Origin: a virus
DNA: 51,412 nt
Strand: one strand, 5' to 3'
IMG/VR virus record: IMGVR_UViG_3300044617_000217
Coordinates: 1 to 51,412 of that record
Position 1 is the first letter of the stretch. Each line of letters starts with the position of its first letter. Made by a program: the position numbers and the translations under genes. This document shows positions 1,657 to 14,800 of this stretch, piece after piece. Under the pieces are notes generated by a model. The model saw only the letters and a program-made list of their open reading frames with translations, was not told where the DNA came from and ran no database searches.

Positions 1657-2063
1657 TACTTACCGCTCTTTTTCCTCGCTTTTGCTAAGGCATCAAAATC
1701 TTTGACCTTAGTTTCTCCCATATATCCCCACGCATGTCCATCATTAATCATTTTATGATTGATAGAAATATCAGATCCATCTAAAAATACCCAACCTAAA
1801 ATTCTTCCATACTTTTCTGATGAATCCATTTTTTCTGTTTTAATAACAACAGTCTTTGCTGAATCAATTGCATTTTTTAAATATGCTTTAGCTTCAAGTC
1901 CTAATGCTTTTTCAATCTTATCTGTTGTGCGACTTTCTGGTGTATCAATTCCAGCTAATCTTACTCTTGAAGTAAATGAGATATCAAATCCAAGATCTAT
2001 GTCAACATCGATTGTATCTCCGTCCACAACCTTAGTTACTTTCTTTACATAATACTCAAACAT
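1656..2063 (-). CDS. Thermonuclease-like SNase-domain nuclease
   Basis: 135 aa, a single staphylococcal-nuclease OB-fold domain with no signal peptide. Visible family features are DGDT at residues 14-17 and VRLAGIDTPE at 34-43. The catalytic Arg-Glu-Arg set appears at R35, E43 and R87 (KYGR), the same spacing as the classical enzyme. It should cleave DNA or RNA with Ca2+ inside the cell, for example in host DNA degradation or nucleotide scavenging; that role is inferred. AGGAG lies upstream of the ATG. Its own -10 element overlaps the end of hsp20, and the gene is coupled to the downstream FmdB gene. Confidence 0.88.
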   Translation of the reverse strand: MFEYYVKKVTKVVDGDTIDVDIDLGFDISFTSRVRLAGIDTPESRTTDKIEKALGLEAKAYLKNAIDSAKTVVIKTEKMDSSEKYGRILGWVFLDGSDISINHKMINDGHAWGYMGETKVKDFDALAKARKKSGK

Positions 2064-2108
2064 TTTATCTCCTTAAAATAGAGCAGTTTTAGCACATGCT
2101 CAGGTGCA

Positions 2109-2139
2109 CCTATGGTAGCGTCCATAGGATTACATTATA
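2109..2139 (-). promoter_or_regulatory. Candidate promoter and 5' hairpin for the SNase gene
   Basis: TATAAT on the minus strand at 2139-2134 abuts the hsp20 stop codon. A perfect 7-bp stem (CCTATGG, 6-nt loop, CCATAGG) at 2109-2128 begins about where transcription should start. No T-tract follows, so it is not a typical terminator. It is more likely a 5'-end hairpin of the SNase mRNA or an operator. Confidence 0.5.
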
Positions 2140-2610
2140 CTATTCTTTCTTTTTCTTACGCAGTGACGGGGCAAATACCTTTTCTTCTGGAGTAAAAGAA
2201 TCCATAATTTCAAACTTTTTAGGCTTTGCCTCTTCTGGCACTTCCCTAATTACAAGGACTCTTAATACTCCATTTTCCATAGTTACTCCTGCTACGATCA
2301 TATACTCAGATAATGAAAATGTTCTGGCGAATGACCTTGCTCCAATTCCTTTGTGAATATACTTGTTTTCATCTTCTTCCGAAGACCCCTTTATTGTTAA
2401 GACATTCTTTTCTTGTTCAACAGAAATATCTTCTTTCTTAAAACCAGCCAAAGCTAGTTCAATCATATATGTATCTTCACTAACTTCAACCAAATTATAT
2501 GGCGGATAGTTTGTAGAATTGTGCATTACTTTTTCGAGATCCTTAAACTGGCGGTCCCAGCCAATAAAAAATGGATCTTTAAAAAGATCCAGTGTGAATG
2601 TGTTTACCAT
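2140..2610 (-). CDS. Hsp20/alpha-crystallin small heat-shock protein
   Basis: 156 aa. A short N-terminal arm is followed by an alpha-crystallin domain (about residues 37-130) with EVSEDTYMIELALAGFKKED, an NVLTIKG strand and MENGVLRVLV. This is the IbpA-like pattern seen in cyanophages and other environmental phages. The tail is Lys-rich (SLRKKKKE) and I see no clear C-terminal IxI/V motif. It is an ATP-independent holdase that probably protects phage or host proteins during infection. It has an AGGAGG-type ribosome binding site and a good sigma-70-like promoter of its own. The upstream palindrome is not the CIRCE or HAIR heat-shock operator. Confidence 0.9.
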   Translation of the reverse strand: MVNTFTLDLFKDPFFIGWDRQFKDLEKVMHNSTNYPPYNLVEVSEDTYMIELALAGFKKEDISVEQEKNVLTIKGSSEEDENKYIHKGIGARSFARTFSLSEYMIVAGVTMENGVLRVLVIREVPEEAKPKKFEIMDSFTPEEKVFAPSLRKKKKE

Positions 2611-2643
2611 TTTATTCCTCCTTCAAGCGAATAAGTTAATTTG

Positions 2644-2698
2644 TAGGCCCCTATCGGCGGCCTATATATATTATATCAAATTGTTTATTGTTGTTCAA
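2644..2698 (-). promoter_or_regulatory. hsp20 promoter with 5' inverted repeat
   Basis: Minus strand: TTGAAC at 2698-2693, 17-nt spacer, TGA-TATAAT (extended -10) at 2675-2670. An inverted repeat, TAGGCC / GGCCTA with 9 nt between (2644-2664), starts where the transcript should start. This is one of the best matches to a vegetative promoter in the window. Confidence 0.7.
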
Positions 2699-2710
2699 AC
2701 GTTCCGCCTG

Positions 2711-2783
2711 CGCCTTCGGCAGGAGTCGAACCTGCGGCCAAGACCTTAGAAGAGTCCTGCTCTGTCCTCTGAGCTACGAAGGC
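2711..2783 (-). tRNA. tRNA-Arg (anticodon TCT)
   Basis: Full cloverleaf on the minus strand. The acceptor stem is GCCTTCG / CGAAGGC, the D-arm GCTC/GAGC, the anticodon stem GGACT/GGTCT (two G-U pairs) with loop CTTCTAA, and the T-arm GCAGG-TTCGACT-CCTGC. The anticodon TCT reads AGA/AGG, Arg codons favoured in A+T-rich genes. CCA is not encoded. The 5' base directly follows the stop codon of the 105-aa gene, so it is probably cut from a joint transcript. Confidence 0.93.
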
Positions 2784-3101
2784 TTAATCGTTTGGTATAT
2801 CCTGATCCATATCAAAGTCAATTAAACCTAGTTGCCTTGCTTCTTCATATCCTTCTGGACTTAAAGATATAATTGCTTCTAAGTTTTCATCATATTCTAC
2901 AGCAATTAAACCTTTTTCAAACAAAGCTATCAATCCATTATCTACATATTCTCTATGAGATGCCCATAGCTCTGGAGCTTGAGTCTCCGCCTTGTCTGTA
3001 ATTCTATAAATTAATTCACCATATTCATCCATGCCAACTAGCTCAACTACTCCAGAAGCTATATATTCCTCTAACTTATCTTGATACTCTTCGTCTTCCA
3101 T
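2784..3101 (-). CDS. Hypothetical acidic protein between two tRNA genes
   Basis: 105 aa, strongly acidic, no membrane segment and no Cys. I do not recognise the family. A repeated pattern, about residues 10-37 and 51-83 (xxGxVELV..DEYGELIYRI / DNGLIALFEKGLIAVEYDE), suggests a winged-helix-like or duplicated helix-strand fold; this is a guess. GGAGG precedes the ATG. The stop is immediately followed by tRNA-Arg, and tRNA-Met lies upstream. A TATAAT sits at 3125-3120, but I see no -35 box. Confidence 0.75.
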   Translation of the reverse strand: MEDEEYQDKLEEYIASGVVELVGMDEYGELIYRITDKAETQAPELWASHREYVDNGLIALFEKGLIAVEYDENLEAIISLSPEGYEEARQLGLIDFDMDQDIPND

Positions 3102-3132
3102 TTGGCCTCCATAAAGATAATTATACTATTAT

Positions 3133-3209
3133 TGGTGCAACAGGTAGGACTTGAACCTACGACTACCGAATTATGAGTTCGGGGCTCTAACCAACTAAGC
3201 TACTGTTGC
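3133..3209 (-). tRNA. tRNA with anticodon CAT (Met, possibly Ile2)
   Basis: 77-nt cloverleaf on the minus strand with encoded CCA. Acceptor stem GCAACAG/CTGTTGC, D-arm GCTT/GAGC, anticodon stem CCGAA/TTCGG with loop CTCATAA, T-arm GTAGG-TTCAAGT-CCTAC. The anticodon stem lacks the three G-C pairs of initiators, so it is either elongator Met or lysidine-modified Ile2. Sequence alone does not settle which. Confidence 0.93.
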
Positions 3210-3216
3210 CAGTAGT

Positions 3217-3468
3217 CTATTGTAAACTTCCGTCCTCGTTTTTGTCAATAGTAGATTCAACAATTTGCTGGACATAATCAGAAAAATGTTTTCTAATATT
3301 TCCATGAGGCCTAGAACCAAGTGATGACCATATTCTTTTATACTCTATAACATTAGAAAATGTTGTAGGGCAAAGCGGTGTGCCATTATATTCTTTTAAT
3401 ACTGTTGGTAAAGGCACATGCTTGCCACAACACTTACAGTCTTTTGCTCTTATCTGATATTCGCTCAT
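3217..3468 (-). CDS. Small Cys-containing protein next to terminase
   Basis: 83 aa. The N-terminal CKCCGKH (residues 11-17) plus a later C33 looks like a partial zinc-binding knuckle, followed by a basic helical region (SRPHGNIRKHFSDYV) and an acidic end. It starts 4 nt inside the end of terL (ATGA overlap), so it is coupled to terminase translation. No function is recognised. A zinc-binding helper of packaging or an HNH-related fragment are both possible and unproven; I see no complete HNH motif. Confidence 0.7.
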   Translation of the reverse strand: MSEYQIRAKDCKCCGKHVPLPTVLKEYNGTPLCPTTFSNVIEYKRIWSSLGSRPHGNIRKHFSDYVQQIVESTIDKNEDGSLQ

Positions 3469-5276
3469 ATTACCATCATTCTGTCTATAGCCTCTTTTAA
3501 TTCGCCTGGCATTTTAGGCGGTCTAATTACATTCTGTCTATGCTCTACTTCTCCGTCAGCATCTGTATTAAAATCATTATCATATGACATTGAATCGTAT
3601 GTATGTATTTTAATCTCGCTATTACTATTTGGTCTAGTGTGACTAATTGCATTATATATTGCTCCACAAGTTGCGTCAGCTAAGTCTTTTGAACCTTTTC
3701 TTGGGTGATCAACTCTATCACGCATAATTTTTAGCTGCAACAATTCATCTATAAGCAAGGAAATGTGCGGTCCGCTTAATCTTTCTTCTAATACAACCAT
3801 GGCCATGTCATCATAATGTTTTTTAGCCACCGATAAAATTTCAGTATTAATATTATATTGTTTTAATTGCTGCATCATATCGTGAGAATTCCAGCGGTCA
3901 AATGTGCATAATCTGATATTAAACCCACGAGTTTTTAGTGACAATATATAATCTTTTACTTCAGTAAAATCAACAGACTTATCTGGAGTTGGTGTCCAAT
4001 ACCTTACAGCATCAACGCTGACAACTGGTGCTGGTTGAGAATACTCATTAGTTATTTTAACATTTACCCAATGATCTACGTGTGCCATTGTAACTGCACA
4101 ATGGTCATGCTTCTGCGCCAAGTCTACGTGTATAAAATAAGTTTTATCTTCTTCTGGCTTAAACCATTCTTCTAAGCGACCAAATTTATCTACAGCAAAT
4201 GCTGTTTTATTAAAAGCTTTTTCTATTTTTTCTCTAGACTTAAAAAATGCATCAATCATTTCTGCAGGCATGCAAGCAAATCTACCTAGGGCATCCATAC
4301 TGTTTTTATAAAATGCAGTTTTAAAATCGTCAATGCTTCTGGTAGGGTTGACCTCCCATGTAGGTCTCTTTAGCGCATACACTTTTGGTATAGAATAAGA
4401 CTTTATATGATCCTCTTCCCACTCTATTTCAAACTCATTGCCTTCTGTTCCGTCTGGAAGGTCCTCATCCATTTTAAACTTATGAGTTCTAACCACTGTT
4501 TCTTTTTCTGATATAACAGAGTCATAAAACTTTTGAATTGGATCGTTTTTAAATCTAGGAAAAGAAAGAAGAATTACCTTACCGAAGTCTGGGAAGCGTG
4601 AATCTACAGATGCACGATACATTTCATATATGGCATCAGCTGTCTTTGCCTGATCATGACCAGTTGTATTGTCTATAGCAAAGCCAGAAATTTCATCAAG
4701 TATTACAACAATTACGTTATAACCTTCCCACGCTTCACGCTCTGAGTGACCTGAGTGAACTGTTACAGATTTATCAAATTTCATTTCTGAAGCTTTATCT
4801 GTATACTTGCCAGCAAACCAAGGAGATCTTTCAATTCTAGTTTTAAATCCTTTAAAGAAAACGTTGTTGGCTTGTTGTGCGTTTATAGCAATATTAAGAA
4901 TATCAATTGCATCCCCAGGCGGCTTACCATAATAAGTTGCTGGATCCTTTAAACATAATAATAAATATACAATATATGAAACAGCAATTGTTGAAGAGTA
5001 GTCTTTTCCAGAACCCTTTCCTAATTGTGCAATAACTTCGGTTGCTGTTTGCTTAAACATTCTTGCACCCTCTTCGTCTCCGAAAAGTTTTTTGAGGGTA
5101 GACTCTTTATAAATTTGTGATGATTTTTCTATAAGGGTATATTGTAACTCTGAAAGCGGTGGTAGTCCAAGATATGCTGGGCTTGTTACAAATGTGCGAA
5201 GATCAACTGGGCGCTCATCAAATTCTTCGCCGTCCAGCATGTCGATAATATCATTGAAATCAAAGTCCACTTGCAT
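3465..5276 (-). CDS. terL: Terminase large subunit
   Basis: 603 aa DNA-packaging motor and headful or end-cutting nuclease. The ATPase part has a Walker A GKGSGKD at residues 86-92 and a Walker B VIVVILDE ending in D194-E195. The C-terminal RNase H-like nuclease shows its acidic residues at D385 (IHVDLAQ), D460 (CTFDRWNSH) and D531/D534 (KDLADATCG). It starts 17 nt inside the terS gene and is followed by an overlapping small gene. The terminase pair lies next to replication and nucleotide genes, about 43 kb from the portal gene on this linear piece. In a circularly permuted genome the two ends could be closer. Confidence 0.95.
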   Translation of the reverse strand: MQVDFDFNDIIDMLDGEEFDERPVDLRTFVTSPAYLGLPPLSELQYTLIEKSSQIYKESTLKKLFGDEEGARMFKQTATEVIAQLGKGSGKDYSSTIAVSYIVYLLLCLKDPATYYGKPPGDAIDILNIAINAQQANNVFFKGFKTRIERSPWFAGKYTDKASEMKFDKSVTVHSGHSEREAWEGYNVIVVILDEISGFAIDNTTGHDQAKTADAIYEMYRASVDSRFPDFGKVILLSFPRFKNDPIQKFYDSVISEKETVVRTHKFKMDEDLPDGTEGNEFEIEWEEDHIKSYSIPKVYALKRPTWEVNPTRSIDDFKTAFYKNSMDALGRFACMPAEMIDAFFKSREKIEKAFNKTAFAVDKFGRLEEWFKPEEDKTYFIHVDLAQKHDHCAVTMAHVDHWVNVKITNEYSQPAPVVSVDAVRYWTPTPDKSVDFTEVKDYILSLKTRGFNIRLCTFDRWNSHDMMQQLKQYNINTEILSVAKKHYDDMAMVVLEERLSGPHISLLIDELLQLKIMRDRVDHPRKGSKDLADATCGAIYNAISHTRPNSNSEIKIHTYDSMSYDNDFNTDADGEVEHRQNVIRPPKMPGELKEAIDRMMVI

Positions 5277-5793
5277 CCTCTACTACGACTGATTCAATTA
5301 TGCCAGTGATTTGTGACAATCTTCTAGCAACATCCATTTTACATTTAGGGCATGAGGCCGTTACTTCTTTTAAAATTCCAACCAATATCTCTTGCTTACG
5401 TTCTGTTTCTGCAAGTTGCCCAGCCAATTCTGCATTGTCTAATAAACCAACTTCTTGCAACATTCCAATTCTTTTGCCTTCAATGTCTGCAATTAATTTT
5501 AATGCGGTTGCCTTAACGTTTAGTTGACCAGCTTGATCTGCGTCTTCTACGGTCTTCCAGGCCTCCTTAATAAGCATTGCATAGTGTTGGTCTGCACCAG
5601 AGATTGCTTCTTTTGCACGGTCTCTAGCACCAACATCATTGTGGACAACATTCTTCCACTCATCTATTAGCTCTACAACTTCTGCTCTTTTAAATCCAGT
5701 GATTGTTGCAATTGTAGTAGGATTATTACCCTTAAGTAATTCCTCTACAACTTTATTCATACGATCATAGTGATCAGCTAATTCAATTTCCAT
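5260..5793 (-). CDS. terS: Terminase small subunit (probable)
   Basis: 177 aa. The N-terminal half (about residues 12-48) resembles a helix-turn-helix (TTIATITGFKRAEVVELIDEW). A long helical region suited to oligomerisation follows, then a C-terminal CPKCKMD knuckle (about residues 148-154). Its position directly upstream of and overlapping terL, with the HTH plus oligomerisation layout, supports a DNA-recognition subunit. Only one CxxC is visible, so zinc binding would need a second chain or other ligands. The start ATG has no Shine-Dalgarno but sits 8 nt below a -10 box. Confidence 0.75.
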   Translation of the reverse strand: MEIELADHYDRMNKVVEELLKGNNPTTIATITGFKRAEVVELIDEWKNVVHNDVGARDRAKEAISGADQHYAMLIKEAWKTVEDADQAGQLNVKATALKLIADIEGKRIGMLQEVGLLDNAELAGQLAETERKQEILVGILKEVTASCPKCKMDVARRLSQITGIIESVVVEDASGL

Positions 5794-5801
5794 ATGAATA
5801 C

Positions 5802-5830
5802 ATTATACTTCTAGTCGACTGAAATAGCAA
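5802..5830 (-). promoter_or_regulatory. Promoter of terS, probably leaderless
   Basis: Minus strand: TTGCTA at 5830-5825, 17-nt spacer, TATAAT at 5807-5802, then 8 nt to the ATG at 5793. The expected +1 falls on or next to the start codon, and no ribosome binding site is visible. Confidence 0.6.
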
Positions 5831-6158
5831 GTTTCTTGGCAATTTTAAGTAAGATTAAATAACCAATCATATCGTCAATGTCATTGTCTCCTGCAAAGCC
5901 TGATCCGTTTTTAATTCTATTTATCTTATCATCAATACGGATCTTAATTTGCTCTTGATTATCCGCCTGAGAAAATATACGAATAGGGCTTAAAGCTGAA
6001 TCTCCATATGAAATGTTTTTCTTAATTAACATCTCTGCAATTTCAAGACACTCTACAATTATTCTATGACCAGATGGTGCATCTGTTGACATTAATTGTA
6101 AGTCTGTTACCCATGCTTGATAACCATTATCTTTATTTGGATATGATACAAATCCCAT
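5811..6158 (-). CDS. Nmad1/DUF1599-like nucleotide-modification-associated protein
   Basis: 115 aa. The core KNISYGDSALSPIRIF, followed by IRIDDKINRI and the ending DIDDMIGYLILLKIAK, matches the DUF1599 / nucleotide modification associated domain 1 pattern. These are small all-alpha proteins related to MazG-type NTP-binding folds and often found beside base-modification enzymes in phages. The start overlaps the stop of the nucleotidyltransferase gene (TAATG), and a glycosyltransferase lies just upstream. That context suggests work on nucleotides or modified bases; this is inference. Confidence 0.75.
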   Translation of the reverse strand: MGFVSYPNKDNGYQAWVTDLQLMSTDAPSGHRIIVECLEIAEMLIKKNISYGDSALSPIRIFSQADNQEQIKIRIDDKINRIKNGSGFAGDNDIDDMIGYLILLKIAKKLAISVD

Positions 6159-6817
6159 TATTCCATCTCCTTATATAGTTGTTTAAGACCCTTTAGTGTT
6201 CCTATGTCCATATACTTCCCGCCTGGCTTTACAGCCCTTATATCTAGACTCATATCAATCCATTCTTGTATTTGTTTTCCTGGATGCTCTAATTCTGGAT
6301 CTATGTATCTTATCAAATTTTTACGGAATAGCATAGTGCCCCACATATATGCATAATCGCAATTATTTGTTTTATCCATAGAAGAAATAACCTTATTCTC
6401 AGATAACAATACTTGACCAACTCTACCCTTTAATTCTTCACTACATTCCCATACTCCTAAAACAAGGTCTCCAGAAACCCTATTCATTTCTTTATAAATA
6501 TTATTTTGTGTTCCATGAATATATGTGTCTGGCATTCCAACTAAAACAGTATCGTTGTAATCTCCTACCATAAACTTTACAGCATCTGACATAGTTGATG
6601 GCTCACGAACTATTAATTTAATATTCATATCCATATTTTGAATAATTGGAACCCATTCAGCTCTTGTAGAAACCCTAACCTCGTCACAAACTTCTAGCAT
6701 TTGCTCTACATGCCACTGAAGAAGAGATCGTTCATCAGAGATTGGCAAGCAAAATTTAGGTATTCCACCTACTCTTGAGGCTTTTCCAGATGCTGGTAAA
6801 ATTCCTATTGTTGACAT
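6158..6817 (-). CDS. Sugar-1-phosphate nucleotidyltransferase-like protein
   Basis: 219 aa from the ATG at 6817, chosen because it overlaps the preceding stop (TAATG) and has GGAG 6 nt upstream; an in-frame ATG 12 nt earlier is possible. The N-terminal IGILPASGKASRVGGIPK is the nucleotide-binding loop of the GT-A-like nucleotidyltransferases (GxxxR...K), and VGMPDTYIHG carries the metal-binding Asp. Enzymes of this family make NDP-sugars from NTP and sugar phosphate. It is shorter than full RmlA (about 290 aa), so substrate and even activity are uncertain. It lies between GT32 and Nmad1 genes in one operon. Confidence 0.8.
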   Translation of the reverse strand: MSTIGILPASGKASRVGGIPKFCLPISDERSLLQWHVEQMLEVCDEVRVSTRAEWVPIIQNMDMNIKLIVREPSTMSDAVKFMVGDYNDTVLVGMPDTYIHGTQNNIYKEMNRVSGDLVLGVWECSEELKGRVGQVLLSENKVISSMDKTNNCDYAYMWGTMLFRKNLIRYIDPELEHPGKQIQEWIDMSLDIRAVKPGGKYMDIGTLKGLKQLYKEME

Positions 6818-7575
6818 TACTTCTCCCATTCATGTGGGTTGAATCCATTGGGATACGACTCATTAACCATTGGATCCTTTTTCCATGCAATCCAACCAGC
6901 CTCTCTGTCATCACCCCAATAAAGATGAACCACATCGTAATCAAGCAAGCGCCTTGCTTCTTGTCCGTTTAAAATCTTTACATTATTATTTTTTAGCCAA
7001 TCCATTTCCATAAGCTCTGGTGCCCAGTCATTTAAATGCTTTTGATAAGGCTCAACACCAAGTTCCTTATAAATTGCATCTGTAAACATTTGAACATCAG
7101 TATAATAATGAACCATATGATTATGTTTAACAATACCGTCTGAACATCTTTCAACACATAAATCTATTGCTGCTTTCATTATTGGGCTCCCAGACTTTGC
7201 AGCAATTACCTGTGTGGCAAGCCATGGCGTGTCTCTTTCAATGTCTAGCAAAACATCGTTGTCGTCACTCAACCAGTTTGAAATTGGTGCCTTGCAATGC
7301 GTATCCATATCTGCATATACTCCACCATTAATATATAGGATTGCAAATCTCCACAGTCCAGCCTTCATAACTCCTAGAGGCAGATTTATATATGTATTGT
7401 ATACTTCTTCTGGAAAGTTTTCTTTAAAAAAAGCCTCTCTGTCTGGCCCACTCATGTATCCATGTTGCCAGTCAGGATTTTGATGCTTCCATGTTCCTAT
7501 GCTTTCTTTTGCATATTGCGGAAGATCATCATATGATGTTTCGTATGTCTGCCATATAATTTTTTCAATGCTCAT
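6817..7575 (-). CDS. GT32-like glycosyltransferase with DXD motif
   Basis: 252 aa. It begins IEKIIWQTYET, typical of the Gly_transf_sug / OCH1-like family. The core LWRFAILYINGGVYADMDT carries the DXD (DMD) metal site at about residues 89-91, and WRFAILYINGG is diagnostic. It transfers a sugar from an NDP-donor in a metal-dependent reaction. No signal peptide or membrane segment, so it is cytosolic. The neighbouring nucleotidyltransferase could supply the donor. The acceptor could be DNA, virion protein or host surface glycan; the sequence does not say. Its start overlaps the stop of the small HTH gene (ATGA). Confidence 0.88.
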   Translation of the reverse strand: MSIEKIIWQTYETSYDDLPQYAKESIGTWKHQNPDWQHGYMSGPDREAFFKENFPEEVYNTYINLPLGVMKAGLWRFAILYINGGVYADMDTHCKAPISNWLSDDNDVLLDIERDTPWLATQVIAAKSGSPIMKAAIDLCVERCSDGIVKHNHMVHYYTDVQMFTDAIYKELGVEPYQKHLNDWAPELMEMDWLKNNNVKILNGQEARRLLDYDVVHLYWGDDREAGWIAWKKDPMVNESYPNGFNPHEWEK

Positions 7576-7718
7576 CTTTTTTTAATCAATCCAAACTGCT
7601 CTAAGTATCTCTGTATAGTCATAGCAGATACGCCACATTCATTTCCTATTTCTGTAACCGTTTTCTTTTGAACTACATATCTTCTATATAGCCAGTCTTT
7701 GCTTTGATATAATTTCAT
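7572..7718 (-). CDS. Small helix-turn-helix protein (48 aa)
   Basis: 48 aa starting MKLYQSKDWLYRRYVVQKK and ending QFGLIKKR. Residues 19-40 (KTVTEIGNECGVSAMTIQRYL) form a clear recognition-helix pattern like the HTH used in resolvases and homing-enzyme DNA-binding tails. Both ends overlap neighbours by ATGA (start with the RuvC stop, stop with the GT32 start), which strongly supports it as a real gene. It is probably a stand-alone DNA-binding protein; the target is unknown. Confidence 0.8.
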   Translation of the reverse strand: MKLYQSKDWLYRRYVVQKKTVTEIGNECGVSAMTIQRYLEQFGLIKKR

Positions 7719-8281
7719 CGTTCTGTTAATACCTTGTTAGCATAATGTGCAATACCAAAGCTATCTGCCACGTCAAAATCCACCACATTTAGATTATACT
7801 TTCTATTAAAGTAATCAGCAGTTCTCTGCTTTCTCATATTACGCAATTGATTTTTATACCAGGAATCTGCGTAGCCTGGGTTCTTTACCCTTATTGCCGC
7901 CTTTTCATCTTTTGTTGGATTTTTGTTTCCAATATATGCCTGCCAAGAGGAAGGAGAAATAGTGATAACCTTAGCTCCAGTAGACATAAGCTCAGCAATA
8001 ACAACGCCATATACATAAGACAATTTTATCACAGCATCTGGTGATCTGACAAGCACTGCTCCTTCTACAACAATATAATCAGACTTTAATTCATCTAACA
8101 TAGCATGCATTTTAATCTTAGCATCGTGTATTTTTTCATATATGTCTGAACCAACAAGATCTACCTTGCCCCATTTTAATGGCTGGTCATTTTCCATAAG
8201 GCAAAAGGCTATGGAGTTTGTAGATGCATCTATGCCTAAAACACGTCCAGCCCTAGTCTTTACCAATTCACCCAATTTCAT
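7715..8281 (-). CDS. RuvC-like Holliday junction resolvase
   Basis: 188 aa RNase H-fold protein. GIDAST places D18 on the first strand, YIVVEG gives E73, and VVDFDVADSFGIA gives D170 and D173. Together these are the acidic residues of RuvC-type resolvases. It probably resolves branched DNA before packaging, which suits its place just upstream of the terminase block and downstream of RecA and nucleases. The first 14 nt overlap the zinc-finger gene upstream. Confidence 0.87.
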   Translation of the reverse strand: MKLGELVKTRAGRVLGIDASTNSIAFCLMENDQPLKWGKVDLVGSDIYEKIHDAKIKMHAMLDELKSDYIVVEGAVLVRSPDAVIKLSYVYGVVIAELMSTGAKVITISPSSWQAYIGNKNPTKDEKAAIRVKNPGYADSWYKNQLRNMRKQRTADYFNRKYNLNVVDFDVADSFGIAHYANKVLTER

Positions 8282-8543
8282 TTATAATATCCATCAGATT
8301 ATTTTTATTTTTAATATTTTTATTTTTTTCACACATGGAGCAAAGGTTGCCAGCGTTATATCTGCTTAACTTATTTCCACATTTACATGCTCTATATGCA
8401 CCATTACGAATAGCTTTCTTTTCATAATACTTTTCCATAATCCTGCGATTTGTGGCAATTCGGCAGCATTCATCTGAGCAATACTTTTGATTATGTGTTT
8501 TAGGCTCAAAATCTATTGAGCATTCTTTATTTGCACAAATCAT
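8268..8543 (-). CDS. Zinc-finger protein
   Basis: 91 aa. Residues 3-26 (CANKEC ... YCSDEC) have a C-x4-C ... C-x3-C arrangement like treble-clef or MYM-type fingers. A second CKCG ... CSMC cluster lies near residues 53-71. The rest is basic and Asn/Lys-rich. It is probably a nucleic-acid-binding accessory of the recombination operon. The ATG overlaps the stop of the Cas4-like gene (ATGA). Exact function unknown. Confidence 0.75.
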   Translation of the reverse strand: MICANKECSIDFEPKTHNQKYCSDECCRIATNRRIMEKYYEKKAIRNGAYRACKCGNKLSRYNAGNLCSMCEKNKNIKNKNNLMDIINEIG

Positions 8544-9331
8544 ATTTTTGGAACCTCAAACAAATCAATTTCAACTGTTCCAATTGGGGTGGTCTTTGCG
8601 TAGCATTCTTTTTTAATTGGACAATATGTGCATGGCATCTTAGACTTAGTTGCACCTTCTGGGCGCATTGGTAGATCGCCATCTTTAAAGTTATCCCACA
8701 CTTGCTGCATCCAAAGAAATGTATCTTCTATTATTTGTTTATTCTTTTCATTCATTGAAATTGGAATAACGAGCAGCTCCTGTGTATTCTTATTCTCATA
8801 CAGGAAGAATCCTTCTTTAGCATTCTTTAATTTCATATATGTAAGCAATTGAAGCATGTGGTTTGCAGATGATTTCATTTCAGACTGACGTGTATCCCAT
8901 ACCTCTTGCTTTGCCGTCTTAATTTCACCAATTACAGTTTCGCCATCATATTCCATAATTAAGTCTATGAAGCCACGAATAGGTGGATACTCATTTATAA
9001 TCTCTTCTTCTTCTGCTCTAAATTCTGGCATGGTTGCAATAAGCTTTTGAAGTCTCTCATGTGCCTGAGTTCCATTTGCCATGTTAGCAATTGCAACTGC
9101 ATCATTGTCATCAATAAACATTGCGCCGCTAAAAGCCATATACCAATATCTAGGACACCTTCCGTGCCCATAGCCAAGTGAGCTGGGACTAAATGATTTC
9201 TTAGTCATCTCTCCGTCTGCTCTTTTTGTATTTCGATATGACTCATCAAGCAATGCCGCAAATCGTTCTGGATCAAAAAACTTTCCAGTATGTTTTTTAA
9301 ACTTAAGATTCTTTACTATATCTCTAGCCAT
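8540..9331 (-). CDS. Cas4/RecB-like PD-(D/E)XK nuclease with Fe-S cluster
   Basis: 263 aa. Nuclease core: H91, D123 (GFIDLIMEY), E136-x-K138 (GEIK) and Q161 (QLLTYM), in the order H-D-ExK-QxxxY. Four cysteines typical of the Cas4/AddB 4Fe-4S cluster are C59 (GRCPRYW) and C234, C237, C243 (CTYCPIKKEC). It should be an exonuclease that makes single-strand ends for RecA-type recombination or degrades DNA. No CRISPR genes are nearby, so an adaptation role has no support. The start overlaps the preceding stop by one base. Confidence 0.9.
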   Translation of the reverse strand: MARDIVKNLKFKKHTGKFFDPERFAALLDESYRNTKRADGEMTKKSFSPSSLGYGHGRCPRYWYMAFSGAMFIDDNDAVAIANMANGTQAHERLQKLIATMPEFRAEEEEIINEYPPIRGFIDLIMEYDGETVIGEIKTAKQEVWDTRQSEMKSSANHMLQLLTYMKLKNAKEGFFLYENKNTQELLVIPISMNEKNKQIIEDTFLWMQQVWDNFKDGDLPMRPEGATKSKMPCTYCPIKKECYAKTTPIGTVEIDLFEVPKI

Positions 9332-9669
9332 TATGAGTTATACCTAACGACATACTTGAGTGCATCTACAAGTTTATCTATAGACTCCTTAGCCGAATAG
9401 TAAATATTCTTTTTATTATTATTTGCTGTTCCCGCTTTATCCTTAGCAATTGTTGAATATACCGCTGCAAGCATAGCAAACTTAGTAGACATTGCTTGTA
9501 ATTCAATAATAAGTTGTGGCGCTTTTGCAGAAGGAACATCTGGATTCATTAACATCTTTACTACAATAGCCAGAGTTCTATCTAGATGCTCATCTTTCAT
9601 GAACTCGTGAAGATCATTGAACTCTGTAATATCGCTAATTAACTCTAGTGTATTCTTATCTTGTGTCAT
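9331..9669 (-). CDS. Hypothetical helical protein
   Basis: 112 aa from the ATG at 9669, which overlaps the XapX stop (ATGA) and follows AAAGGA. An in-frame ATG at 9705 would overlap XapX by 40 nt and has no ribosome binding site. Mainly helical, with no Cys and no membrane segment, ending in a Lys-rich helix. No family is recognised. By position it may assist the nucleases or RecA. Confidence 0.75.
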   Translation of the reverse strand: MTQDKNTLELISDITEFNDLHEFMKDEHLDRTLAIVVKMLMNPDVPSAKAPQLIIELQAMSTKFAMLAAVYSTIAKDKAGTANNNKKNIYYSAKESIDKLVDALKYVVRYNS

Positions 9670-9827
9670 GACATAATCCTTTGAACTAATCCGTATCCCA
9701 TCCATAAACCAAATATTCCCATGAGCCCAGCAAACACAGGAGGCGCTGGAACTGGCAACTTGAATAAACTAAAAATTGCGCCTACCCCCATACCAGTAAG
9801 TGTGGTTAACAATACTTCTTTAATCAT
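9666..9827 (-). CDS. XapX-domain small membrane protein (53 aa)
   Basis: 53 aa with two hydrophobic segments (about residues 5-22 and 32-47) around FKLPVPAPPVFAGLMG, the XapX family signature (KxPxPAPPxxAG). It sits in the inner membrane as a helical hairpin. It overlaps the upstream gene by 8 nt and the downstream gene by ATGA, and AGGAG lies just upstream. XapX proteins have no known biochemical role. Finding one in a phage recombination operon is odd; a role in membrane attachment or lysis timing is speculation. Confidence 0.85.
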   Translation of the reverse strand: MIKEVLLTTLTGMGVGAIFSLFKLPVPAPPVFAGLMGIFGLWMGYGLVQRIMS

Positions 9828-10125
9828 GATTCTCCTCATAAAATTGGATCAGTTCTTCTAATACTGCCCACTCAATAATTCCAAGTCGGACCTTGGAATC
9901 TTCACCTATAATAATCTTTAATGCTGGGTGCATATCCCTACTTACTTTAAATGTGTCTGTGCAAATTTTTGACCACACATCTTTATTTAATGTAAAAGAT
10001 CTGCCAGCTTCTTTATAATCTACTAAGAACTGTTTCCATTTAGCATCACCTTTTTGATATTCGCCACGCCCTGAATTCTTTTGAGCTTTGGCACCATCTC
10101 TTTTTACTTCTGAACGCTCAGACAT
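9820..10125 (-). CDS. Putative small PD-(D/E)XK endonuclease
   Basis: 101 aa. GRGEYQKGDAKW followed about a dozen residues later by FLVDYKEAGRSF gives a D ... D-x-K pattern as in small Hjc/RecU-like nucleases, and KIIIGEDSKVRLGIIEW looks like the next strand pair. Short for a full nuclease, and there is a RuvC-like resolvase nearby, so it may act on other branched DNA or be a cofactor. It overlaps the upstream stop by one base. Family assignment is moderate. Confidence 0.55.
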   Translation of the reverse strand: MSERSEVKRDGAKAQKNSGRGEYQKGDAKWKQFLVDYKEAGRSFTLNKDVWSKICTDTFKVSRDMHPALKIIIGEDSKVRLGIIEWAVLEELIQFYEENHD

Positions 10126-10316
10126 TATCCAACCTTAAATGTTGTTTCGTGACCCTTGGAGCATCTCCAAGACATTACTAACTCTATTGGGTCCCAGAAA
10201 GCACCAGAAACATCTTCATCACATTTTATACATGCACGAATGCCGCTAAGTTGTTCTAACTCATATGGCTTAGAGTTTTCTTGTTTGTCATTTAAAAACT
10301 CATTAAGATTTGGCAC
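10125..10316 (-). CDS. Small zinc-ribbon protein
   Basis: 63 aa. C29-x2-C32 (ACIKC) and, further on, C52 with H56 (WRCSKGHETTF) form a plausible C2-CH zinc ribbon. The first 14 nt overlap the end of recA, so it is coupled to it. Probably a DNA- or protein-binding accessory; function unknown. Confidence 0.7.
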   Translation of the reverse strand: MPNLNEFLNDKQENSKPYELEQLSGIRACIKCDEDVSGAFWDPIELVMSWRCSKGHETTFKVG

Positions 10317-11307
10317 TTATATCACCTATAAGTTTTCCAACTACTTCTGGATTATCACGTAGATACTGAACAGCCTTGGCACGCCCTTGGAATCTTTCAC
10401 CATTAACTGTATACCATGCTCCGCCCTTTTCTACAATACCGCACATCTCTGCAACATCAAGTGCTTCTCCGACTCTATCTACACCAAGAGCTTCCCCTTG
10501 GTAGTAAAAGTCATACTGTCCTGATAGATTTGGGGGGCCGAGTTTGTTGTAATCAATAATCCAGTTAACTGGCCTTCCGACTTTCTGTTCGATAATCTTG
10601 TCGCCAACTTTAATGCCAGCCTTAATAGCATTAGCCTCAGCTTCAGACGACCAGAGCTTAATGACTGTGGAAGAAAAGAACTTGACTGCCATGCCACCTG
10701 TTGGGATGTGACTAGCGTGCATAGATCCAAATTGATTTCGTTGTTGTGAGATGAGAACAAGTAGTGTGTTTTTGTTTGCATAGTTTAACATCTTGACTGC
10801 GTGGGTCATATCCTTTGCTTCTGCGCCGATTTGCTTAGTGTCTTGCAAATCCTTCATTTCATTTCCATCTTTTTCAAAGTAAATAGCTGGCAACAGTGCT
10901 GAGATAGAGTCAACAACAATTAAGTCAACTCCAGCATCCATAAGTTTAGTTGCCACATCTACCATATCATTAACAGTTTTTGCTGGTGAGTAAATAAGGG
11001 AAGATGAATCTACTCCTAATTGCTCAGCCCACCTTGGATCGTAGGACGCTTCTGCATCAATCCATGCACACGTCTTACCTTCTTGTTGAGCTAAAGCAAT
11101 CATTTGTAAGCAAAAAGAAGACTTTCCAGCTGACTTATTTCCCCAAACTAAAACCTGTCTGCCATAGCCAAGTCCGCCTTTGAGCGCCATGTTTAATCCA
11201 ATACTTGGAGTAACCTGCTTTTCTATTTGAACATCTACAGCAGATTGAACTCTTGCTCTAGTTTTTGGATCTAACTTTGCTAATATATCATCTAATACGA
11301 TTGTCAT
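10303..11307 (-). CDS. recA: RecA/UvsX-type recombinase
   Basis: 334 aa, near normal RecA length. Walker A GNKSAGKS lies at residues 56-63, and DLIVVDSISALLPA is the Walker B strand. LVLISQQRNQFG and the following glycine-rich region match the L2 region. It forms filaments on single-stranded DNA for strand exchange in phage recombination and repair. It works with the SSB, the Cas4-like nuclease and the resolvases in the same operon. Confidence 0.95.
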   Translation of the reverse strand: MTIVLDDILAKLDPKTRARVQSAVDVQIEKQVTPSIGLNMALKGGLGYGRQVLVWGNKSAGKSSFCLQMIALAQQEGKTCAWIDAEASYDPRWAEQLGVDSSSLIYSPAKTVNDMVDVATKLMDAGVDLIVVDSISALLPAIYFEKDGNEMKDLQDTKQIGAEAKDMTHAVKMLNYANKNTLLVLISQQRNQFGSMHASHIPTGGMAVKFFSSTVIKLWSSEAEANAIKAGIKVGDKIIEQKVGRPVNWIIDYNKLGPPNLSGQYDFYYQGEALGVDRVGEALDVAEMCGIVEKGGAWYTVNGERFQGRAKAVQYLRDNPEVVGKLIGDISAKS

Positions 11308-11340
11308 TATTGCTCTTTCTTCTCTCTGCTTAGTATATCA

Positions 11341-11688
11341 TTAAAATAAATTGCCGTGAAGTCTTGGACGTTCTTTATTTATATCCATCTTCTTTTGTAG
11401 AATTTCATCTAGGCTATGCAAAACCTTTTCTTCATTACGCATAGCGGCATATATATCTAGTAAACGAATAATGACATCTGCCATTTCTTCTACTACTTTT
11501 TCTGAACCGTGGCTCTTTCTAATTGCTTCAAGGACTTCTGTTACCTCTGAATGAACAAGGGCTAATTTATTTCCAACTTTGTCATTAGTATAGTCGCCGT
11601 CCCAAAATCCTTTTTCTTTTGCAGTCTCATGCAAAATTGCAGCAAGTGCATCCAAGCCATAATCAGTTGGCATCTGTTGTATTTCCAA
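11341..11688 (-). CDS. MazG-like nucleotide pyrophosphohydrolase
   Basis: 115 aa all-alpha protein. LALVHSEVTEVLEAIRK gives the E-x2-E metal site of helix 2, and VEEMADVIIRLLDIYA gives the second E/D cluster, the EExxD pattern of MazG. It hydrolyses NTPs or dNTPs to monophosphates. Phage versions may clear unwanted nucleotides or lower (p)ppGpp. The start is TTG at 11688 with AGGAG 8 nt upstream; it overlaps the upstream gene by 26 nt. Confidence 0.88.
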   Translation of the reverse strand: MEIQQMPTDYGLDALAAILHETAKEKGFWDGDYTNDKVGNKLALVHSEVTEVLEAIRKSHGSEKVVEEMADVIIRLLDIYAAMRNEEKVLHSLDEILQKKMDINKERPRLHGNLF

Positions 11689-11872
11689 TTTCTTCTCCTA
11701 ATTTAAATATAAATGACTTTGTTTCATCGTCATAGGTTATTTCTAGCTGTTTATCTTTTCCTGTTTCATTCATAAAAACTTCTGTGGGCACAGATATCTC
11801 TTTATGATGAGCAAGTATAGATCCCAGAACTTTTGATAAATCAATTTCAACAATTGCTTCTTCTTGTGTCAT
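11663..11872 (-). CDS. Hypothetical small protein
   Basis: 69 aa, acidic, probably a beta-rich fold (KQLEITYDDETKSFIFKL). No Cys, no membrane segment, no recognised family. It overlaps the dnaE stop by 4 nt (ATGA) and the MazG gene by 26 nt, so it is part of the replication operon. Confidence 0.7.
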   Translation of the reverse strand: MTQEEAIVEIDLSKVLGSILAHHKEISVPTEVFMNETGKDKQLEITYDDETKSFIFKLGEEIGNTTDAN

Positions 11873-14800
11873 TTTACTTCCTTAACCATTAATGTTCCGT
11901 CATCTAATTTAGACAAGACGGGCTTGCATATCATTCCTTCTCGCATTTTACCTAGAGCCATTTTGTATAACGTTGAAAATACAATTGCTCTAGTAAGGTT
12001 CTTATCTTTATCTGCCATAACTATGTGAGCCATAGTCTTTCCAGCCTTTGTTGTATAGTTGGTAAAGTTAATTACCTTATACTGTTCTTCTTCCATATCA
12101 TACTCTTTTGCATATAGATACTGAACAAACAGGTCTTCACTGTCTGGTTTGATATCAGAAAGCTTTACATACTTTGCAATTCTATTATCTCCCACCAATA
12201 TAAAATACATTTGGTTAGGTTCAATTTGAGTTTGTTCATTATGGAATAAACCAATCGTTCCAGTTTCATCTACCAGCTCTACTCTTGCCCACCCACTACC
12301 ACGCTTGATACTTTTAACCATACCAAACATTACGAATGATCCAAGATCATCAAATTCTTCAATTGGTCTAGCCTGAGCTTTAATTCTTGGTGGAACACCC
12401 TCTAAATTAAATGAAGGTATGCCCAAGTATTCATAATAGTTTTCTTTTTCATTTCCAGACCTTGGGTTATCATCAAATGCCGCAGCACCAATTGTATTTA
12501 ATGCTGATATTGCACGACTATTAATTCCGCTTCCCTTTTTAGAAGCCTTATCCACAAAGTCTTTATAGGTTGCAAAAGGCCTTTGATCTATAATCTTATT
12601 GGCTATACTATCCGAAATAAACTTTACTTCTGCCAATCCAAATCTAATTGAATCCTTTTGCAGTGAGAAATATAATGCAGACTCATTGATATGCGGAAGT
12701 AAAACCTTTAGTCCAAGGCGCTTTGCTTCAATTAAATATTCTGTTCTCGCATCTTTGTCATTTTCGTTTTTAAGAATCGAAAACATGAATTCAAGAGGGT
12801 AATACCTTTTAAGCCAAGCAGTGTAATAAGATAGAAGGGAGTAAGCAATAGCATGAGAACGATTAAAGGAATACCCAGCGTGAGCCTCAAACATATGCCA
12901 GAGCGTTTCGGCTTGTTTCTTAGAAATGTGTTTTGAAGCGCCAGCAATAAACTGATCCTTGAATTGGTCGAACTCTTTTGCATCTTTCTTCTTTCCAATA
13001 ATCTTGCGAACCTTATCAGCCTCTGACCAAGACATTCCTCCTAAGTGGACGCAAGCCTGCATGACCTGCTCCTGATATATAATAACACCGTATGTATTTT
13101 CAGTAAAAGGCTTCATGATTGGATGAATAAATTCAACAGCCTCACGACCATGCTTACGATTAATATATGATGCACCAACCGTATTCATTGCTCCTGGACG
13201 AACAAGAGCATTTGATGCAGCTAAATCTTCAAAGTTATTTACGCCCATCTTCATAAGCAGATTTGTGTATGGCGTAGCTTCTGCCTGGAATACACCCTTT
13301 GTATATCCTTCACTCAATGTTTTAAAAACATCAGAATCATCTAGATTAATCTTTGAAAGATCTATATCTTTACCATGTCTTTCTTTTATAGAAGAAAGAG
13401 TGTCAGATATAACAGACAATGTTTTAAGACCCAATGCATCAAGCTTAATGAGACCAATGTCTGCTACGGTGTCCATATCGTATGCCACTACTGGAATTCT
13501 TCCAGACACTTTATCCTGTGCATCTTCACGAGATTCAACTGGCGCAAACTTTCTGATGTCATCTTTTGCAACAACCACGCCAGCGGCGTGAACACCAACT
13601 GAACGAATTCTGCCACGAAGTCTTTCGGCAAGCCAAACCACTTCTGGATACTTTAATCTAAATTCTTTTGTATTTGGAGAATCCATAAAATCTTCAAACG
13701 TGTCTACGGATTTTAGTGCACGGTTTACATCTGACAATGGCACCATAAATACACGAGCAGCATCACGAACTACACCCTTATCCTTAAAATAAGTAAATGT
13801 AGAGATAGATGCAACATGCTTAAACTTCTTCTTTAAATAATCTTTAACCTCTTTGCGACGACGATCTTCAAAGTCTGTATCAATATCTGGAAAGTCGTTG
13901 CGCTCTGGATTAATAAAGCGGAAGAATAGTAGGTCATATTTAATTGGGTCTACATCTGTAATTCCCAATGCATAGCAAACTAGGGATCCAGCAGCAGAGC
14001 CACGGCCTGGTCCAACTCTTATGCCACTATCTTTTGCCCAGTTAATCATATCTGCAATTACAAGGAAGTAAGATGCAAAATTCTTTGAAGCAATTACTGC
14101 AAGCTCTTCCTCTACACGAGCCACATAGACCTCATCTGAAGCCCTCTGAAGCCTCTCTAAGCCATTATAGGACAACTCTCTAAGCTTCTCATCGGCATCA
14201 GTCTTTGGGACAGGCAACAAGTCTAGGCCCTGATGAAAGTCATATTCAGATACCTTATCTGCAATTTCCATGGTATTTTCATATATATCTGTTCTATTAA
14301 TCCCAGCATTTCCAAAGTCTGCCTCTATTTCAGAGCGACTTTGAATAAATAGATTATAGTCTTGAAATGAAATTCTACGGTCTGGATAAAGATAATTAAA
14401 TCTATCATTCATATCCTTGATATTGCGAGACATTTCAAAATCTGCCTCTTTGTCTGCCTTTGGAGATGTTGATAGAATTAACATTGCTTCTTCTAATACT
14501 CTATCTTCTTCCTTAGCAAAGTGAGCATCTCCAGTTGCCACCGCCTTAATCTTTAGTTCATCTGCTAGGCTTAGTAGACCTTCATTTATTTCTTTAGGGT
14601 TGTGAGATTGAACCTCAATATAAAAATCATCACCGAAAGTCTTTTTAAAATCCTTGAGAATAAGTTTAGCTTCAGAGAACTCATTCTTTTCGATGCACTT
14701 AGAAATAAGCCCATTAAGGCATCCAGACAATACAATAATACCCTCAGCATATTCCTTTAGCACCTCCCTATCAATTCTTGGCTTATGATAAAAGCCTTCG

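Follow-up and report, generated by a model that had tools for sequence, protein, structure and literature searches.

The window analysed here, a 51,412-base virus sequence from an uncultured freshwater phage, carries a glycosyltransferase gene (P3) and a nucleotidyltransferase-like gene (P2) that closely related phages exchange as one unit. We consider these genes to be an exchangeable two-gene sugar cassette that targets a virion protein or the host surface rather than a DNA base, and put the probability of this reading at about 0.62. Glycosylation is likely, with a virion protein or surface glycan as a more probable target than DNA, and the Nmad1-like gene (P1) behind the cassette is a neighbouring core gene. 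Glycosyltransferases (GTs) of environmental phages are often suggested to serve DNA protection. Here, natural swaps between near-isogenic phages argue by comparison that the sugar genes can be separated from their surroundings as a cassette, and that the Nmad1 gene next to them should not be taken as a sign of base modification.

Gene order and protein families at the locus

The source record holds a fragment, about half of the phage genome as judged from relatives, and its nearest named kin at the DNA level are Stanwilliamsviridae Streptomyces phages, a group that includes Daubenski. Transcription of the locus runs along the minus strand in the order Cas4, a 91-aa gene, RuvC, HTH48, P3, P2, P1, T177 and terL, with the following features:

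7715..8281, minus strand: RuvC-like resolvase, conserved flank (phrog_159, 1.8e-22; 45% identity to the Daubenski gene)
7572..7718, minus strand: HTH48, 48-aa helix-turn-helix protein, upstream border of the slot (weak Sigma70_r4/HTH-like Pfam matches, phrog_9759)
6817..7575, minus strand: P3, GT32-family glycosyltransferase, 252 aa (PF04488, OCH1 profile match, DXD motif)
6158..6829, minus strand: P2, sugar-1-phosphate nucleotidyltransferase-like protein, 223 aa (Foldseek, conserved signature, always behind a GT)
6144..7571, minus strand: exchanged segment, the P3+P2 cassette (blastn against L212; another cassette in L211, L212, L163 and L164)
5811..6158, minus strand: P1, Nmad1/DUF1599-like, all-helical, 115 aa (hhalign, phrog_1485, conservation in the slot)
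5260..5793, minus strand: T177, directly upstream of terL, possible small terminase, conserved flank (phrog_9507, 1.4e-57; 50% identity to Daubenski)
3465..5276, minus strand: terL, terminase large subunit (phrog_2, 4.2e-16; 59% identity to the Daubenski terminase)

The initial annotation had placed three open reading frames joined by TAATG and ATGA overlaps on the minus strand at 5811-7575, and both the frames and the overlaps were confirmed by direct reading of the sequence. HTH48 ends and P3 begins within a shared ATGA, and P2 runs into P1 through TAATG. The longest P2 frame overlaps P3 by 13 bases; since Met5 of P2 is invariant across 19 homologues, P2 probably starts at window position 6817, which makes the P3/P2 junction TAATG as well. 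All three are real genes, because they are intact in dozens of distinct phages and have low median dN/dS values (P3 0.049, P2 0.098, P1 0.106). These values are close to those of the flanking RuvC and terL genes, indicating that the cassette is functional where present. Promoter and terminator scans of the locus gave nothing better than shuffled sequence, and local GC content showed no deviation that would indicate recent transfer. Two tRNA genes, tRNA-Arg(tct) at 2710-2783 and tRNA-Met at 3133-3209, lie downstream of terL.

P3, first annotated as GT32-like, is a GT32 enzyme by sequence, matching PF04488 at 3.8e-15 (56.8 bits against the curated Gly_transf_sug cut-off of 23). Its closest PDB profile match was the yeast OCH1 alpha-1,6-mannosyltransferase (9n3s, 1.2e-19), and the DXD motif (GGVYADMDT in P3) is kept in 65 of 66 unique homologues. 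P3 lacks a membrane segment, its maximum 19-residue hydropathy being 1.18. The GT32 catalytic region and DXD motif are thus shared with OCH1 and other GT32 enzymes, but OCH1 is a Golgi membrane enzyme, whereas P3 is a soluble phage protein.

The assignment of P2 to the enzymes that form NDP-sugars stands at the level of the fold predicted by a structure model. A Foldseek search with this model, which is of modest quality (pLDDT 62), revealed similarity with UDP-glucose pyrophosphorylase, RmlA and HddC (E about 1e-8). Sequence matches were weak, with a MobA-like match of 9e-5 under the cut-off and no Pfam nucleotidyltransferase match. A nucleotidyltransferase-like signature, LPASGKASR.GGIPKFCLP, is kept in all 63 unique homologues, and no membrane segment was found. 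P2 is thus modelled as an NDP-sugar pyrophosphorylase fold, with the corresponding enzyme activity predicted. A genome scan with P2 found a chromosomal homologue in Opitutaceae (55%) beside a GT2-like gene, which did not indicate the sugar. The same scan matched L209 (CAINGU010000031.1), labelled as a cyanobacterial metagenome-assembled genome; this contig has the slot of the phage lineage with GT2, nucleotidyltransferase, Nmad1 and FkbM genes, and is probably a mis-binned phage.

P1 had been annotated as an Nmad1-type protein, and this identification holds at a remote level. In hhalign against an alignment of eight proteins from the DUF1599 family, labelled "nucleotide modification associated domain" in the viral structure library, P1 reached a probability of 96.7 (E 3.4e-10), whereas another small, unrelated window protein used as a control scored 0.05; P1 is therefore a remote Nmad1 relative. 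It also matched phrog_1485 (1.9e-11), and the motif order KN..YG(D/N)S - R..DK..R - D..D...Y is kept in 109 of 109 unique homologues. The PF07659 (DUF1599) HMM had no match over its cut-off in the window or in 30 P1 homologues, none of these 30 had any relevant Pfam match for P1, and searches of NCBIfam and PDB sequences yielded nothing useful. The AlphaFold model of P1 is of low confidence and had no PDB structure match; its BFVD matches were weak (E about 1), with Nmad, DUF6378 and dATP/dGTP-diphosphohydrolase proteins among them. The all-helical make-up and acidic motifs of P1 also raised the possibility of a MazG-like identity; comparing it with the protein that occupies, in the window, the position of the MazG-like gene of Daubenski gave nothing.

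Exchange of the cassette in a variable slot

The mobile unit was delimited by comparison with four sister phages (L212, L211, L163 and L164) that hardly differ from the window except in the slot. A blastn search against L212 aligned window positions 7572-14673 at 97.0% and 1871-6143 at 92.6% identity, with nothing between. The similarity stops with the final base of the HTH48 stop codon (7572) and picks up again in P1, at its sixth codon (6143); between these points the sisters carry a GT25, a methyltransferase and a different GT32. The moving unit is P3+P2. Part of P1 is 80-92% similar in 60-base blocks, below the start of the adjacent T177, so some tracts of exchange extend into P1. The sister phages would allow a direct comparison of coat or surface decoration.

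To survey the slot more widely, we compared 145 distinct RuvC-to-T177 intervals gathered by P1, P2, P3 and RuvC searches; since P2 and P3 helped to select the sample, these counts should not be read as frequencies. HTH48 is present in 139 of these slots and P1 in 143, including 43 without a GT and nine without any cargo. P2 occurs in 75 slots and always directly behind a GT (GT32 in 60, GT2 in 15), so the P2-P3 coupling proposed initially holds. In the subset chosen by RuvC (69 distinct slots), P1 is found in 67 and P2 in 19, and seven are cargo-free, with HTH48 and P1 alone, as counted from the listed arrangements.

These data bear on whether the three genes constitute one functional operon, with P1 an enzyme of the same sugar pathway. 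The translational coupling of P2 to P1 by TAATG, with a gap of -1 in 43 of the P2-P1 junctions counted, speaks for such an operon. However, P1 persists in slots that lack a GT or any cargo, the cassette swap leaves it in place, and several of the Nmad1 relatives inspected in other phages adjoin terminase, polymerase or recombination genes. The exchange data already contradict a single operon, and we regard it as highly improbable. Because P1 is core with or without sugar genes and P3+P2 are exchangeable, the single three-gene system of the initial annotation was not borne out. P1 is a core gene of the phage lineage beside the terminase genes, independent of the cassette, and its role probably lies with nucleotides, DNA or packaging. 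In Paenibacillus phage API480, an Nmad1/DUF1599-type gene lies directly upstream of that for the terminase large subunit, so the link between Nmad1 and packaging genes may be general.

The alternative cargo of the slot includes GT25, GT2, FkbM and other methyltransferases, a cytidylyltransferase-like protein, IMP dehydrogenase (IMPDH), APS kinase, a weak sulfotransferase match, and aspartyl or 2OG-Fe(II) hydroxylases. A mannose-6-phosphate-isomerase cupin is accompanied by a GT in 11 of 11 slots. This cargo is a vocabulary of glycan and protein decoration, and cargo that is not glycan-specific (IMPDH, lone methyltransferases, Asp hydroxylase) is also present. Two relatives (L015 and L018) carry the phage-borne IMPDH gene (PF00478, 2.4e-88) between P2 and P1. 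In L247, L251 and L257, the slot holds an APS kinase-like gene (PF01583, 2.6e-15) along with genes for a conserved small protein and, in tandem, two uncharacterised proteins (N1), an arrangement that suggests a sulfate-activation version of the slot. A second variable site, downstream of terL, carries a carbamoyltransferase gene (G009, about 43-48 kb; G003, 102.8 kb), which in G009 is accompanied by genes for a short-chain dehydrogenase and uncharacterised proteins.

A tentative extension is that the slot is a dedicated site for swapping whole decoration chemistries, with the HTH and Nmad1 genes as recombination anchors. With similar reserve, the chemistries exchanged there may comprise GT32 with nucleotidyltransferase, GT25 with methyltransferase, GT2 with nucleotidyltransferase, sulfate activation and FkbM methylation. 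If true, this lineage of uncultured freshwater phages would possess a natural combinatorial system of glycan coats.

DNA, virion and host surface as possible targets

Soluble GTs act on DNA in T4 and other phages, and P1 is truly a remote Nmad1 relative. P3 might accordingly add an NDP-sugar made by P2 to a hydroxylated base, with Nmad1 in support, and so protect the DNA from restriction. To our knowledge, phage DNA glycosylation needs a hydroxylated base. We therefore examined 12 long relatives (86-115 kb, of uncertified completeness), which stand in for the other half of the window's genome. No ThyA/dCMP-hydroxymethylase-type domain, no Thy1 (ThyX-type) domain and no TET/JBP dioxygenase over the cut-off was found in them. 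Five of the 12 had Tet_JBP matches, each of them short and below the cut-off, which we took for other 2OG-Fe(II) oxygenases. Among the larger proteins of the near relative G009 and in the rest of the window, no DNA methyltransferase or other base-modifying Pfam family was seen. Since a hydroxylated base is needed and no maker of one was found, these results count against DNA as the target, although an unknown enzyme could exist. The 43 GT-free slots that retain P1, and the swapping of the GT cassette without it, argue in the same direction. The initial annotation had doubted a DNA target because the window lacks a thymidylate-synthase-like gene; that doubt was sound and extends, as judged from the 12 relatives, to the genome half beyond the fragment. 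Genome protection was named as one possible GT role by the authors who described the first Nanopelagicales phages (PMC10202952). For the present locus, DNA glycosylation is poorly supported, and we consider it unlikely.

The replacement of P3+P2 by other sugar- or surface-modifying genes makes decoration of the particle or host surface likelier than that of DNA. The surface sugar coat that had been offered as the other option is thus favoured by the type of slot cargo. What the comparisons show directly are the borders and swapping of the cassette, the P2-GT pairing and the fold families, while the enzyme activities, donor sugar and acceptor we infer. We picture P3+P2 as a sugar cassette seated in a cargo slot that is hypervariable within a large actinophage-like lineage and is bounded by the small HTH gene downstream of RuvC and by the core P1 and terminase genes. 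P2 would most likely turn a sugar-1-phosphate into an NDP-sugar, and the soluble P3 would move this activated sugar onto an acceptor inside the infected cell. The likeliest acceptor would be either a capsid or tail protein of the virion or a precursor of a host-surface glycan. By recombining within the conserved flanks, phages would swap the cassette as a unit and so alter the surface decoration, presumably to their advantage.

One branch of this explanation is that the cassette modifies a host-surface glycan, blocking superinfection or changing receptors, instead of decorating the virion. The GT32, GT25, GT2, FkbM methyltransferase and mannose-isomerase cupin families found as slot cargo are common in bacterial surface-polysaccharide clusters. 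Superinfection exclusion has been proposed for the GTs of freshwater actinophages (PMC10202952). Nevertheless, the common cassettes held no recognisable membrane protein, flippase or polymerase, and neither P2 nor P3 has a membrane segment. We give the host-surface branch a real, though clearly less than even, chance; between virion and host surface, the sequence evidence favours neither.

Comparison with known glycosylation systems

DNA glucosylation of the T4 type combines hydroxymethylcytosine with alpha- and beta-GTs. The present locus resembles it in having a phage-encoded soluble GT, but the 12 long relatives contain no gene for forming a hydroxymethylpyrimidine. Daubenski (Stanwilliamsviridae) shares the order RecA, Cas4, RuvC, T177, terminase at 44-59% protein identity, with Cas4 at 44%. 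In contrast to the window, its slot holds a DprA-like gene, thymidylate kinase and small genes, without a GT cassette, and the gene in the place of P1 is unrelated to P1 in a BLASTP comparison. The Nanopelagicales phages E7 and F5 are likewise freshwater actinophages with GTs, but they are 39-kb phages (PMC10202952), and they were absent from the tblastn matches of P1, P2 and P3 in phage records.

A parallel in make-up exists with mycobacteriophages. Virion protein glycosylation is described for Che8 and Corndog (Freeman et al. 2023, as cited in PMC12363180), and Che8 gp110 is reported in PMC12363180 to be necessary for capsid glycosylation. As in phage virion glycosylation, the slot inventory here combines phage GT genes with sugar-modifying partners. 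Che8 gp108 is a GT2 with a methyltransferase, gp109 an uncharacterised GT and gp110 a GT25. P3 has no detectable relation to gp109 or gp110 (probability 0.2 for the P3 profile against the GT25 gp110), and the GT25 slot cargo matches gp110 weakly (probability 16.5). The system described here differs in pairing a GT32 with a nucleotidyltransferase, beside RuvC and terminase. By sequence, its relation to Che8 is one not of close homology but of make-up: both are actinobacteriophage-type clusters of overlapping soluble GT genes, and the families of gp108 and gp110 also fill this slot.
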